DNA of 24,412 nt, from the IMG/VR virus record IMGVR_UViG_3300032246_002452, positions 1-24,412 of that record; one strand, given 5' to 3'. Source of the DNA: a virus. The position numbers and the translations under genes were made by a program. Of the stretch, positions 1 through 5,216 are shown piece by piece. The notes beneath the pieces are model-generated. The model was not told the origin of the DNA. It was given only the letters and a program-made list of their open reading frames with translations, and did not search any database. Every line of letters starts with the position of its first letter. Position 1 is the first letter of the stretch.

Positions 1-646
1 CGGCACCATTGTTGCCCTTGATGAGCTGGTTGCTGGCCGCACCAAGCTTGCCGTCAACTTTGCTGGCGCCAAGCACCACGCCCAGCATGACTACTCCAGT
101 GGCTTCTGCGTGTTTGCAGACCTAGCCATGGCTGCCACCATGCTCACAGAGGGCGCCTACGGAGACCGCAAACGCGTCGCCGTGTTTGATTTTGACGTGC
201 ATCACGGGGACGGCACGGAGAACCTGCTGCGCAAGAACCCTAACGTGCTGACGTATAGCGTCCACCAGAAGGGCATCTTCCCAGGCACGGGCAACGAGTC
301 TCACCCAGAAGACCACGTCTATAACTTGCCGCTGCGTTCAGGGGATGGCGATAAGCAGTTCCTGATTGCAGTAAACGAGTTCCTTGCGGTAGTGGACGAC
401 TTTGGTCCAGACTATGTGTTCATTGCTGGCGGCGCGGACGGGCATAAGCTCGACCCCCTTGCCTCAATCGACTATAGTTATAAGGGCTACAACAACGCCA
501 TGCGGACCATGCGTGATGGACTTCACGACATGCCAATCCTGTACGGTGGTGCTGGCGGGTACCGTCCTGACGACGTTACTCCTAGGGTCTGGGCGACTGC
601 GGTGACCGCACTTGCGGAAGAGCAGAAAGCATACGAGCGAGGGTAA
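1..646 (+). CDS. Histone deacetylase/AcuC-type zinc deacetylase, 5' end cut by window edge
   Basis: This is a zinc-dependent deacetylase of the HDAC/AcuC/acetylpolyamine amidohydrolase superfamily, which hydrolyses acetyl-lysine or acetylated amines. About 215 residues are visible; the family is usually 300 to 380, so roughly 100 N-terminal residues lie outside the window. The reading frame is open from base 2; a GTG at 110 is internal, because conserved sequence precedes it. Visible motifs are the His-His dyad (AGAKHHA, bases 74-79), the zinc-binding DFDVHHGDGT (188-217), the third zinc ligand in GADGHKLDP (Asp at 437-439) and the catalytic Tyr in GGAGGY (560-562). The C-terminus ends about where the family usually ends. 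Slight departures are AGAKHHA where GGRHHA is typical and CVFAD where CxFND is typical. The gene runs directly into the zinc-ribbon gene one base later. The family is clear; the substrate (protein lysine, polyamine, other) cannot be read from the sequence. Confidence 0.9.
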   Translation, partial: GTIVALDELVAGRTKLAVNFAGAKHHAQHDYSSGFCVFADLAMAATMLTEGAYGDRKRVAVFDFDVHHGDGTENLLRKNPNVLTYSVHQKGIFPGTGNESHPEDHVYNLPLRSGDGDKQFLIAVNEFLAVVDDFGPDYVFIAGGADGHKLDPLASIDYSYKGYNNAMRTMRDGLHDMPILYGGAGGYRPDDVTPRVWATAVTALAEEQKAYERG

Positions 647-905: not shown

Positions 906-1091
906 TTAACGCTTAAACCAGGACCCGACCTTCCCAAGAAGGGACTTCTTCTCAACCTTTGGGGCCGCTACGGCCTTCTTGGCTGGCGCCTTCTTAACCG
1001 GCTTTGCAGCTGGCTTAGCGGCGGCTTTAACGGCAGGCTTCACAGCCGGCTTGGCGGCAGCCTTTGGGGCTACCTTGTTGTTCTTGACCAT
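906..1091 (-). CDS. Lysine/alanine/proline-rich basic protein, histone H1-tail-like
   Basis: This is a 61-residue, very basic protein with 17 lysines and a single acidic residue (Glu47). Lysines fall at exactly every fourth position from Lys6 to Lys38 in tetrapeptides such as KPAV, KAAA and KPAA, followed by PAKKA. This composition resembles histone H1 tails and the basic tails of actinobacterial nucleoid proteins, so nucleic-acid binding is the simplest guess. The C-terminus (SLLGKVGSWFKR) differs and could form a short amphipathic helix that touches membrane. The gene is real rather than chance: it has an AAGGAGG ribosome site seven bases before the ATG and is the last gene before the terminator. 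No homologous family is recognised. A lysis accessory role is possible because it follows the holin, and a DNA-packing role because of its composition; neither is shown. Confidence 0.75.
   Translation of the reverse strand: MVKNNKVAPKAAAKPAVKPAVKAAAKPAAKPVKKAPAKKAVAAPKVEKKSLLGKVGSWFKR
975..1076 (-). repeat. Tandem tetrapeptide (12-base) lysine repeat
   Basis: Residues 6-39 of the small basic protein have a lysine at every fourth position, nine in a row (6, 10, 14, 18, 22, 26, 30, 34, 38). The spacers are Ala, Pro and Val, with one extra Lys at 33. The DNA shows the matching 12-base period with partly degenerate copies. Confidence 0.85.
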
Positions 1092-1132: not shown

Positions 1133-1153
1133 ACTATACCACATTAATTGTGG
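1133..1153 (-). promoter_or_regulatory. Possible -10 box next to a short dyad
   Basis: On the minus strand a TATAGT hexamer (1138-1133) lies just downstream of a CCACA-N5-TGTGG dyad (1153-1139) that overlaps the holin stop. No convincing -35 is seen 16-18 bases upstream. This is a weak candidate for a separate promoter of the lysine-rich gene. Confidence 0.2.
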
Positions 1154-1536
1154 AACTCGTCGTCCCACGTCTCCCCGGCAAGGCTGCCAGCAAGCTGGTC
1201 CGCAATCCCGTCACCATCGGTGTCAATGGCAGAGCCGGCGATATGGGAGGTGTCCGCAAGAGCGGCCTTCTCCTCGGCCTTAACGGCCTTTGCCTTGCCA
1301 ACGCCAAACTTTGTGTCCTCTGGATTGAGGGCCCGGACAATGACCTGCAGGGTAGCCGCAATGGCGCCCGAAGCAACTGTTCGGAAGTCTTGCGCGGACA
1401 TGTCAAGAATTGGCGCACCTGTGGCGAGCATTACTGCAATACCCGTTGCAAGACCAACGCGAAACGCTTCAAGAAGAGCTTCGTCAATACCCGTGTTGTC
1501 AAAAACCCACTTAAGCTTTGAAAAAATTACGCTCAT
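1144..1536 (-). CDS. Putative holin
   Basis: Holins are small membrane proteins that permeabilise the inner membrane and let the endolysin reach the cell wall. This 130-residue protein has two hydrophobic stretches, about residues 24-44 and 51-70, joined by a short polar turn. ALNPEDTKFG follows, then a charged tail rich in Lys, Ala and Glu. The size, the single hairpin of hydrophobic segments, the charged C-terminus and the position right after the endolysin gene all fit an actinophage-type holin. The ATG has a GGAGG ribosome site six bases upstream, and the gap to the endolysin stop is 26 bases. The C-terminal tail contains DTDGDGIAD (residues 105-113), the shape of a calcium-binding loop, which is not a usual holin feature. 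The call rests on context and topology, not on a recognised family signature. Confidence 0.65.
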   Translation of the reverse strand: MSVIFSKLKWVFDNTGIDEALLEAFRVGLATGIAVMLATGAPILDMSAQDFRTVASGAIAATLQVIVRALNPEDTKFGVGKAKAVKAEEKAALADTSHIAGSAIDTDGDGIADQLAGSLAGETWDDEFHN

Positions 1537-2187: not shown

Positions 2188-2265
2188 AGAACCTCCTTAT
2201 GTGATTGCCAAAAGGCTCCCACATTTTATCCTGACCTGTGGTTAAGGGCTATGGCAGGAGGTTCT
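2188..2265 (-). promoter_or_regulatory. RNA leader predicted to sequester the endolysin ribosome site
   Basis: On the minus strand AGAACCTCCT (2265-2256) is the exact reverse complement of AGGAGGTTCT (2197-2188), which contains the endolysin Shine-Dalgarno sequence and ends one base before the ATG. Nested inside are GCCA/TGGC (2255-2252 with 2210-2207) and CCACA/TGTGG (2241-2237 with 2223-2219). A transcript running in from the fibre gene could therefore fold and block endolysin translation. The pairing is read directly from the sequence; the regulatory role is inferred. Confidence 0.6.
2223..2228 (-). promoter_or_regulatory. Candidate -10 box inside the endolysin leader
   Basis: TAAAAT on the minus strand (within GGATAAAATG) resembles a -10 element. 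It lies inside the loop of the leader hairpin. A transcript starting about seven bases downstream would lack the upstream blocking arm but keep the ribosome site. No -35 match is visible at normal spacing, so confidence is low. Confidence 0.25.
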
Positions 2266-2276
2266 GCGGTTAAAGC

Positions 2277-5216
2277 CTATAACTTAGCCTCAATTTCTTT
2301 AAGGCGTGTGTCAATATCAAGTAGTGCCCGAACTAAGAGCGCCTCCATCTCGTTTTGGGGAATGTTGACGGCAAGCACCGTAGTCTCTTCCTCGCTCCCA
2401 GTTGCAATCTCGGCCTCTTCACCGTTAATGTTCATGGCTTCAACCCAGTGCTTAAGGTCAGTTGTGGCAACTTGATCTGCAATAAATCCAAGGCGTGTTC
2501 CATTATCCGCCACTGAGTCAGTGCGCTCATGAAGGTGTGGAGCCTTCCACTTAAATGCCACTGGGATAAGTTGTCGCAGGGTATCTATTGCGCCAGAAAT
2601 CTCGGTAATTTCTTCCTTAAGACGTGAATCTGATGGTGTAGTAAGTGCAGCATACTTCCATCCACCTGCACTATAGACATAGAAGCGTGTGTTGGTGTTA
2701 TCAAGTGCCGTCCCGCCGTTTGTAACCACGTCAGCAAATACGTCTTGGGTTCCTGCTCCATTTACGGTTGTGGTTGGGGCACCCGGCAAAGACTTAACAA
2801 TAAGGCAGCCAGGTTGAGTACCAGACAGAGATACTTTTATATCCGCACCACCAAATTGCCATTGGCGACCATTTGTTCCAGCAAGATCAAGACTTAGTCC
2901 GCTTAATGAAGAACTTGCGTAAAGCGCACCATCAAAACCAATACTTCCGCTAGATGCAATGTCTCCAGTTGCAACAAATTTATCATCTGTTTTTAATGTA
3001 TTTGCCGCTGATCGGTAAATGTTTGTATCTTTTCCAGAACCAAAGACAATCCCGCCATTTGCGGCAGTCTGTTGACCCTGAATTCCCATGGTGTCCGAAA
3101 TGTCCGCGTCAAAGATAAGTGAGTCGTCGCCAATATACACGGCTGGGTCCGCCCCTCCAGTTGCAGTTCTAATTGCGGTTGAGACGGACAAGTCTCCAGT
3201 AACGTTTAGGGTCGACGCGGCGCCAGAGTAAAGGCTTGCCACGGAAGAGCCGCCAAAGTTAAGGCCGTTTGCGCCAAGCTCAATAACATCCCTAGCGCCG
3301 CCCGTTGAGCCACGAAGCCGCAAAGATCCGCCGCCAGATTTGTCAACGGTGATCCCGGAGCCCTCAATGGTGATAGCCTGCGTTACAAACCCTGGGGTCC
3401 AAGAGCGCACAACGTTTCCCTCTTCAACCTGAGCGCCGTCCACGTAGATTGCATCACCGGCTGCCGCTCCTGTTCCGGTCCCAAACTCAATGACTGGTTT
3501 TACCCAGCTACCAGTTGGGGTAAATTTGTAAAAAAGGCGATACCATCCATCCTGCTGCTCATAGCTACTGTAATTGTCTGAGCCAATTCCTATCTCTGCC
3601 CCTGGGGTAGCGCTTCCGCCGCTTGCTGCATAAACTCTTAGCTTAATGCTCCTAGATGTAAGAAGCGTTTGTGGCGTTGGCTTAACGTAAGCTGAAAAAA
3701 TGTAAGGCTGATTGGCAATAACGGCAACGTCGTATTGGGTGGTATCTCTTTTTGGCTGCATAATTGTGGCCGCAGAGCTTGCTGCCGAAAGCAAACCCGA
3801 CTTTGTGCCAAAGCGATAAGTTGAGTTGTTAAGAATAAGTGTGCCGTTTGCATCAACTTCCCAGTTGTCTGGGCTAACAGTTCCTGTCAGGTAGCTAAAA
3901 GTTATGTCTCCAACAGTTGGCTGCACCCCAGCGTCTGTTGAAAGGCGCAACATAGTTTGCAGGTATCTCCTACCAGAAACAACAGCGCCAAGAGACGAGT
4001 ACCAGGTTCCAGTGGTGGCGGTTGAAGTTGTTGTTGATCGGTAAAACATTGCCGCTTGGGTTCCCGCTGGTGGTGCGGGGTAGGTAATGTCCCACTGCGA
4101 AGAAGATGTACTGCCTGAGTCCCATACGTGGATAACCTGCCCCCATCGCACCTTAAAGGCGTAGCGAGCGGATTCCGAGGAAGTGTTTCCCGAGGAGTCA
4201 ACAACCTCAATCGTCCACCAGTATTCAGTGCCGTTAACCAGACCAGTAATAGTGCTCCAGCCAGTATATCCAGTAGCCGATGAAACCCAAGTTGGAACGT
4301 TGGTTGTCCCTGGGACCTCGAAGTAGGTATCGGCTTTATGGGCGGTATCCGTGATCAATCCCGAGTCGTAATATTTTGTCCCACCCGTAGATGCAGAATA
4401 AATCCTTACCCGCCAAGACGATTGAGCAAGACTTGCTGCGCTGGAGTAGTTCCAGCCAAGTTTTGGTCGGGCCAACTGTGTGGATGCAGACCATTCCGTT
4501 GTATCGGTAATGTTGACAAGCTTTGCAATTCCGGCGCTTGCAGGTGTGCTTGGAGATCCAATAGTTACGGTTGGTGCAGCTGCGTTGTAGTCAATAACAA
4601 TGTATGGGGCAACGGCGCCAGAAATACCGCTGGCGCCACCTTCAAGGCTGTACCAATCGCAATAGTCGGATCCTCCTTCGGTGTTGTTTCGAATTTGAAT
4701 GCCGTAGTTAGTTGCATTTCCGCCGCCGGTGACAGAAGTTGGCGCCCAAGCCTTAACAATGTCCGTAATGACAATGGTGTCTACGGCAGGGCTTGATGGT
4801 CGAGAGGATCTGGTGGTAAAGTTGACTGCGCCAGTTGCCGTTGTGCTAGGTTGGTTGTCCCACTCTACGGAGTTAGAACCGTTGAACCCTTCGTCTGTTC
4901 CGTAAATTCCCTCTGTCCACGTAGTTGTAACGCGGCTAAACTTTATTGATCCGGAATTCCATGTACCGTGCGTACCTCTTGCGACGCCGTTAACGGTTCC
5001 ATCGCTGGTACGTGCAGTTTTGAGATACAAAGTTGCACTATTGATGGAACCTACGTTTGAAAAGTCTACGTTAAATTGAATAAGCGAGCGGATGGTGTAG
5101 TCACCGCTATCGCCAACGTAATTGTGATAATCTTTTCCTGCGCCAAACGACACGCCGTCTATTCCGCGGATTGTAATTATGGAGTCTTTGGAGGCGGTAA
5201 ATGTTCTTGTGGCCAT
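2277..5216 (-). CDS. Tail fibre with DNRLRE-like head and S74 self-cleaving chaperone
   Basis: This 979-residue protein is likely a trimeric receptor-binding fibre. Residues about 1-212 resemble a DNRLRE domain (INSATLYL, then ITDIVKAWA and NYGIQI). Residues 213-357 look like a fibronectin type III-type beta sandwich ending in EYWWTIEVVDSSGN. Residues 450-660 resemble a carbohydrate-binding-type jelly roll, with YIFSAYVKP, then WYRLFYKF and IYVDGAQVEEG. A Gly/Ser/Ala-rich shaft follows. From residue 862 comes an S74 intramolecular chaperone with the SDSRLKEEI motif. In the known family the Ser and a nearby Lys cut the chain just before the Ser once the trimer has formed. The C-terminus ends in a heptad-like helix. 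The ATG lies three bases after the stop of the gene before it, in the same frame, and has no good ribosome site, so translation probably depends on coupling. Confidence 0.85.
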   Translation of the reverse strand: MATRTFTASKDSIITIRGIDGVSFGAGKDYHNYVGDSGDYTIRSLIQFNVDFSNVGSINSATLYLKTARTSDGTVNGVARGTHGTWNSGSIKFSRVTTTWTEGIYGTDEGFNGSNSVEWDNQPSTTATGAVNFTTRSSRPSSPAVDTIVITDIVKAWAPTSVTGGGNATNYGIQIRNNTEGGSDYCDWYSLEGGASGISGAVAPYIVIDYNAAAPTVTIGSPSTPASAGIAKLVNITDTTEWSASTQLARPKLGWNYSSAASLAQSSWRVRIYSASTGGTKYYDSGLITDTAHKADTYFEVPGTTNVPTWVSSATGYTGWSTITGLVNGTEYWWTIEVVDSSGNTSSESARYAFKVRWGQVIHVWDSGSTSSSQWDITYPAPPAGTQAAMFYRSTTTSTATTGTWYSSLGAVVSGRRYLQTMLRLSTDAGVQPTVGDITFSYLTGTVSPDNWEVDANGTLILNNSTYRFGTKSGLLSAASSAATIMQPKRDTTQYDVAVIANQPYIFSAYVKPTPQTLLTSRSIKLRVYAASGGSATPGAEIGIGSDNYSSYEQQDGWYRLFYKFTPTGSWVKPVIEFGTGTGAAAGDAIYVDGAQVEEGNVVRSWTPGFVTQAITIEGSGITVDKSGGGSLRLRGSTGGARDVIELGANGLNFGGSSVASLYSGAASTLNVTGDLSVSTAIRTATGGADPAVYIGDDSLIFDADISDTMGIQGQQTAANGGIVFGSGKDTNIYRSAANTLKTDDKFVATGDIASSGSIGFDGALYASSSLSGLSLDLAGTNGRQWQFGGADIKVSLSGTQPGCLIVKSLPGAPTTTVNGAGTQDVFADVVTNGGTALDNTNTRFYVYSAGGWKYAALTTPSDSRLKEEITEISGAIDTLRQLIPVAFKWKAPHLHERTDSVADNGTRLGFIADQVATTDLKHWVEAMNINGEEAEIATGSEEETTVLAVNIPQNEMEALLVRALLDIDTRLKEIEAKL
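2280..2633 (-). other. S74 intramolecular chaperone domain of the fibre
   Basis: Residues 862-979 of the fibre begin SDSRLKEEI and continue with LGFIADQV and LKHWVEAMN, the layout of S74/endosialidase-type chaperones. Family knowledge predicts release of this 118-residue piece by autocleavage before Ser862. Confidence 0.88.
3237..3869 (-). other. Carbohydrate-binding-type jelly roll in the fibre
   Basis: Residues about 450-660 have the common phage layout of this fold: a short N-terminal strand with a Trp, then PYIFSAYVKP, a Gly-rich strand, DGWYRLFYKFTPTG, and the closing AIYVDGAQVEEG. The same type of module occurs in the hub (9292-9814) and, cut short, at the end of the minor tail protein (5220-5381). 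No ligand can be inferred. Confidence 0.6.

Follow-up and report, generated by a model that had tools for sequence, protein, structure and literature searches.

A bipartite promoter-like element and hairpin leader as a candidate control module for a putative phage lysin gene

A candidate control module for a lysis gene occupies positions 2267-2184 (minus strand) of a viral DNA stretch of 24,412 nucleotides (IMG/VR record IMGVR_UViG_3300032246_002452, positions 1 to 24,412; hereafter the window), at the junction between a tail-fiber gene and the gene for a putative lysin (Table 1). Pairing of the ribosome site, a conserved bipartite element and a hairpin anatomy shared across relatives were observed computationally, and from them we infer promoter activity, a start site, an effect on translation and a role in timing. 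In the proposed mechanism, a dedicated promoter, composed of a GCAGAAC box, 30-31 bp and a TAnnnT -10 hexamer with no -35, would initiate near 2216. In RNA read through from the tail genes, the -10/discriminator segment would fold back on the Shine-Dalgarno sequence and the bases preceding it; in this phage, the CTCCT adjacent to the box would also fold onto the Shine-Dalgarno region. The readthrough mRNA would be poorly translated and mRNA started at the promoter, devoid of the 5′ arms, would be translated, which would uncouple lysin output from transcription of the tail genes, in the manner of T4 gene e. We regard the module as a whole, with its own promoter and masking of readthrough mRNA, as very nearly an even call. 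Phages in general face the problem of readthrough from strong tail operons into a lysis gene, and the unusual bipartite promoter would offer a handle on lysis timing in phages for which the searched collection contains no relative that is cultured or annotated.

Table 1. Features of the lysis region of the window
Feature	Positions	Strand	Description
Tail-fiber gene, upstream neighbor	2277..5216	-	C-terminal Peptidase_S74 chaperone domain (Pfam PF13884, E 5e-9); phrog_5481 tail fiber
GCAGAAC box	2261..2267	-	31 bases (from 8-base box) upstream of -10; about -50 to -43 from predicted start
Upstream arm AGAACCTCCT	2256..2265	-	Complement of ribosome-site arm; left half AGAAC overlaps GCAGAAC box
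-10-like hexamer TAAAAT	2223..2228	-	Aligned TAnnnT in leaders of all classes; between the two arms
Two-tier hairpin	2199..2224	-	Outer ATGTGG (2224-2219)/TCACAT (2204-2199), inner GCC (2216-2214)/GGC (2209-2207)
Predicted transcription start	2216	-	7 bases after hexamer; inferred from geometry
Ribosome-site arm AGGAGGTTCT	2188..2197	-	Holds Shine-Dalgarno AGGAGG; 3′ arm of 10-bp helix
Lysin gene, 207 aa	1563..2186	-	Papain/C39-like cysteine peptidase by predicted fold
Candidate holin gene, 130-aa protein	1144..1536	-	Gene after lysin; no trusted family match

The tail-fiber gene would be the source of readthrough transcripts into the lysin gene. The 207-aa product of the latter had been labeled an endolysin in the first-pass annotation, a name made likely by a predicted papain/C39-like fold although not by any family library: the window protein had no match in Pfam, PHROG or NCBIfam, and PF13529 was matched weakly by 2 of 14 members of the lysin family. 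AlphaFold returned a confident papain-like fold (pLDDT 79, pTM 0.84), Foldseek matched the model to staphopain, the pseudomurein endoisopeptidase PeiR and C39-like peptidases, and DDCGP and GHMT motifs are invariant in the family. A cell-wall or lysis peptidase is thus the likely, if putative, assignment from the modeled fold. Annotated phage records yielded no relative of the lysin and none of the large tail protein, and no relative was found in GTDB genomes. By eye, the C-terminal part of the candidate holin resembles the protein that precedes the lysin in L098-L100. The lysis operon ends with a 61-aa Lys/Ala/Pro-rich, histone-tail-like protein (906-1091, minus strand) with no Pfam or PHROG family match. 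Convergent with the late operon, a histone-deacetylase-family domain protein is encoded at 110-646 (plus strand), adjoined by a zinc-ribbon protein at 612-848.

The lysis-timing switch proposed in the first-pass annotation started from a 10-base complement, and its local description was confirmed. AGAACCTCCT (2265-2256, minus strand) is the exact complement of AGGAGGTTCT (2197-2188, minus strand), 58 bases apart, and the gap holds the reported nested stems (ATGTGG/TCACAT and GCC/GGC) and the TAAAAT at 2228-2223. The minimum-energy fold of 2150-2290 (-40.7 kcal/mol) pairs both arms in the 10-bp helix and with them the Shine-Dalgarno sequence; this region is modestly more structured than its shuffles (z -1.68, 13 of 200 as good). 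Among 20,000 dinucleotide shuffles of the upstream region, 6 gave a perfect run of at least 10 between the upstream and ribosome-site regions; fixing the initial bases of the promoter box raised the count to 22 in 20,000. The chance originally put at under once in a thousand therefore holds approximately for this single site, with no correction for how many sites were looked at. Runs of 10 also occur at 2 of 254 other gene starts of related loci, in two loci at similar positions, probably the same homologous place. The 10-base pairing of the window is thus uncommon, though not decisive alone. Predicted opening of the ribosome site in the window costs 9.6 kcal/mol in the long transcript versus 5.0 in the short one, and the long-transcript masking is not unusual relative to shuffles (z 0.79, p 0.17). 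No Rfam match was found.

Two overlapping IMG/VR scans retrieved 36 and 80 loci that encode relatives of the 207-aa protein, and their upstream regions were split into two groups by the preceding gene. In group 1, the lysin follows a small membrane-protein-like or other short gene, with a gap that is usually at most 24 bases, and no promoter-like element was found in these upstream regions. Tight coupling of the lysin to a short membrane-protein-like gene without a promoter-hairpin leader was observed in L007, L008, L010, L013, L016, L104, L105, L108 and L111-L115. In group 2, a tail gene or, at a number of loci, an unrelated short ORF precedes the lysin, usually at a distance of 57-122 bases. 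This group comprises 43 distinct leaders, which were assigned by eye to 16 classes, A to O plus W; class W contains the window, L009 and L031. The same small zinc-ribbon-like ORF precedes both the L003 (class A) and the L009 (window-type) leaders, and this sharing across two leader classes suggests that leader and lysin move as a module.

Every group 2 leader contains a TAnnnT hexamer, nearly all of them 37-48 bases before the start codon. These hexamers were chosen by eye ahead of the recognition of the GCAGAAC box, which lies 30-32 bases upstream of TAnnnT with at most one mismatch in 34 of the 43 distinct leaders, a count that includes L075, whose box reads GCAGAATT. Classes C, N and O are without the box, and that of class K has two mismatches. 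The leader of L030 extends 68 bases to the start codon, yet its box-hexamer spacing is 30, which indicates that the box is locked to the hexamer and not to the start codon. Spacer identity between classes is near random (0.37 vs 0.32 expected), so the box has been retained within diverged surroundings. The exact bipartite pattern was present in 23 of 28 phage records, once per genome at the lysin, with 3 matches elsewhere. When viral contigs were scanned for the box plus -10, the full leader geometry appeared, among the 200 matches listed, only in the same lysin family; most of the listed matches had no gene start in register, and a few were unrelated coincidences.

Additional constraint is visible where the box falls within the tail gene and encodes Ala-Glu-Leu. 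Near the gene end, Ala-Glu is written GCAGAA in 22 of 23 cases versus 0 of 15 for other AE[LIV] of the same tail genes, counts that are not independent because the rows are related. The GCAGAAC DNA motif thus appears to force the Ala-Glu-Leu codons at the tail-fiber C-terminus (the place of 2261-2267; L001, L011, L063, L077 and others). The box is noncoding, with at most one mismatch, in the window, L003, L006, L009, L030, L031, L075, L077 and L092. In L077, the tail-gene end is tandemly duplicated (~2895-3001), and a second, noncoding copy, GCAGAACT, located after the tail-gene stop, occupies the promoter position. A -35 hexamer was not found 16-18 bp upstream of the -10, and a sigma-70 scan gave no minus-strand match. 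The geometry points to a promoter specific to the lysis gene that has an upstream activator-type site around -50 and lacks a -35, and the sequence pattern makes it quite probable that the lysin has its own promoter. The start predicted from the hexamer agrees with the internal start near 2216 suggested previously, and the promoter-like element lies inside the hairpin.

Between the -10 and the Shine-Dalgarno sequence, leaders of about 13 of the 16 classes fold into a two-tier hairpin. The outer 5′ arm starts at the hexamer end or in the discriminator, the inner stem begins near the predicted +1, and the outer 3′ arm stops at or just before the Shine-Dalgarno sequence; transcripts starting at 2216 would consequently lose the 5′ arm. 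The outer arms differ by class (ATACTG/CAGTAT, ATGTGG/TCACAT, TGACT/AGTTA, TGCC/GGTA, TCCGT/ACGGA, CTGTG/CACAG, TAATC/GATTG and others). In several classes, the window included, but not in all, the Shine-Dalgarno sequence or start codon is paired in long transcripts. The predicted opening cost of the long transcript exceeds that of the short one in most members of classes A, W, B-G and O; in classes H-N, the difference is near zero, slightly positive or negative. From -10 to ATG, structure exceeds that of the leaders' own shuffles (class-mean z -1.21, Wilcoxon p 0.0002) and that of all other gene starts (p 0.008); relative to control starts with intergenic gaps, leaders are only marginally more structured (MWU p 0.07). 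The most extreme leader is that of L075 upstream of 3001 (z -5.2), where a near-continuous hairpin runs from GTTTTATAC across the -10 to the start codon. On these folding models, the hairpin has just short of an even chance of lowering lysin translation from readthrough mRNA.

The search for covariation among relatives, put forward at first pass as a check on the switch, gave a divided answer. In exchanges between classes of the upstream half, ending at the predicted start, and the leader half, native combinations interacted better across the 16 classes (p 0.0002-0.006 by length and representatives). Arm-only tests were weak, however: the exchange of arm and ribosome site was marginal (p 0.01-0.09, and p 0.26 without classes E and O). 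A swap of the discriminator alone gave p 0.04-0.19, and a swap of the spacer alone was not significant (p up to ~0.6). RNAalifold on a MAFFT alignment of the leaders returned no consensus structure, probably because the classes do not align.

Lack of the pairing in relatives had been named in advance as evidence against the switch, and the 10-bp arm is indeed not kept in either of the other members of class W, the two nearest relatives. Upstream arms AGAACCTCCT (window), AGAACCCCCT (L009) and AGAATCCCTT (L031) stand opposite ribosome-site arms AGGAGGTTCT, AGGAGGTTTC and AGGAGGTTTC, respectively, and the three upstream regions contain perfect runs of at most 10, 5 and 4 bases. With G-U pairs allowed, some class W pairing persists around one C-A mismatch. 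The box half of the arm is retained in classes unable to pair it with the ribosome site. Given this retention and the lack of the full arm in L009 and L031, the perfect helix may have been strengthened recently or by accident. The 10-bp arm itself is perhaps particular to this phage, and a functional need for it here is doubtful. Other leaders carry arms of their own against the ribosome site: in class A, ACCTCC directly before the -10 pairs with GGAGGT; in L075, TTTTATAC pairs with GTATAAAA just before the start codon; and in L101, TCCTTTGC pairs with GCAAAGGA. Perfect arms of at least 7 bases were found in 4 of 16 classes (A, the window's, E and O), and these four consist of different sequences. 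Among control starts, 7 of 254 have such an arm; a binomial worked out by hand, in which the controls are not independent, puts the difference at roughly p 0.001. A Fisher combination of arm length over all classes was not significant.

The absence of the 10-bp arm from L009 and L031 and the weak arm-only tests favor a simpler account, in which function resides in the promoter and a short leader alone, the 5′-end hairpin protects the message or is neutral, and the 10-bp complement is a coincidence of the box and a strong Shine-Dalgarno sequence. The same account is helped by conservation of the box where pairing is impossible (classes B, D, F, H, J and M) and by a GCC that begins 6-8 bases after the hexamer in most leaders. 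It leaves three observations unaccommodated, namely the significant whole-leader swap, the four classes with independent long perfect arms, and the leaders of classes B, E and O that are paired right up to the start codon. We consider it a real, though minority, possibility.

The whole-leader swap also bears on a DNA operator, in which a repressor or activator would bind dyads over -10 to +20 and RNA pairing would be incidental. Location over the -10/+1 is typical of operators, and the unique box around -50 hints at an activator that binds DNA; the arms, however, vary in sequence from class to class yet remain complementary, G-U pairs and bulges included, unlike a conserved operator. Together with the swap result, this renders the operator improbable. 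That the -10-like box and the pairing are functionless products of chance in an AT-richer gap is less probable still: the missing -35, the modest folding z of the window and the lack of a minus-strand sigma-70 match fit such a view, but the codon constraint speaks against it, as does a bipartite element that is unique and locked in its spacing in 23 of 28 genomes. A tail-operon terminator without a U-run that insulates the lysis cassette can be dismissed as the least probable reading, since, although the hairpin closely follows the tail gene and no other terminator intervenes, a T-run is absent, a terminator scan lists none on the minus strand, and the hairpin overlaps the -10 and the next-gene leader and so would stop the promoter's own transcripts.

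The proposed module, a promoter embedded in a masking hairpin, can be set against several known arrangements. Start-associated sequences of cluster K mycobacteriophages combine a conserved short sequence with inverted repeats at gene starts and occur at several genes per genome; the element described here differs in being single-copy and tied to the lysin. In T4 soc, 49, I-TevI and segB and in Aeh1 mobE, a late promoter lies inside a hairpin that sequesters the ribosome-binding site (PMC2988022, PMC3014915). Those are other genes and phages, and the hairpin here often ends before the Shine-Dalgarno sequence without covering it. Several classes instead resemble seg43(25) of Aeromonas phage 25, whose hairpin, of untested function, is directly upstream of the ribosome site and does not cover it (PMC2988022); seg43(25), unlike the gene here, is a homing endonuclease gene.

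The closest parallel is T4 gene e. Its long transcripts conceal the ribosome site, with lysozyme synthesis from this form reduced ~100-fold, and late promoters within the 5′ arm produce transcripts in which the site is free (PMC3014915). The present system would share with it a lysis gene, a ribosome site that can pair in longer transcripts and a promoter in the DNA of the 5′ arm, whose transcripts lack that arm (PMC3014915). Of the T4-like switch originally proposed for the window, the promoter-in-hairpin layout recurs in most relatives with different sequences, whereas the 10-bp arm is not maintained. The promoters also differ, with GCAGAAC-N30/31-TAnnnT here and the T4 late promoter TATAAATA there; the latter is absent from the window, which has TAAAATGT instead (family consensus TAnnnT), so this system is at most an analogue of the gene e switch and not a member. 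The lysin is unrelated, the arm sequence is not conserved, and the present system is known from sequence alone. Although the arrangement is alike, tail genes lie upstream here and early genes in T4, and the T4 timing logic of early readthrough into a late gene is for this reason not simply transferable. It is conceivable, and we suggest it tentatively, that phages unrelated to T4 independently evolved the T4 lysozyme logic, with a single-copy, lysis-specific promoter of unusual architecture, its box partly in the tail-fiber frame, doubling as the mobile 5′ arm of a hairpin that masks the ribosome site; the arm sequences would turn over quickly while the layout persists. If so, they would hold a second, independent solution of the T4 type, and the promoter-embedded masking hairpin would be a convergent design.
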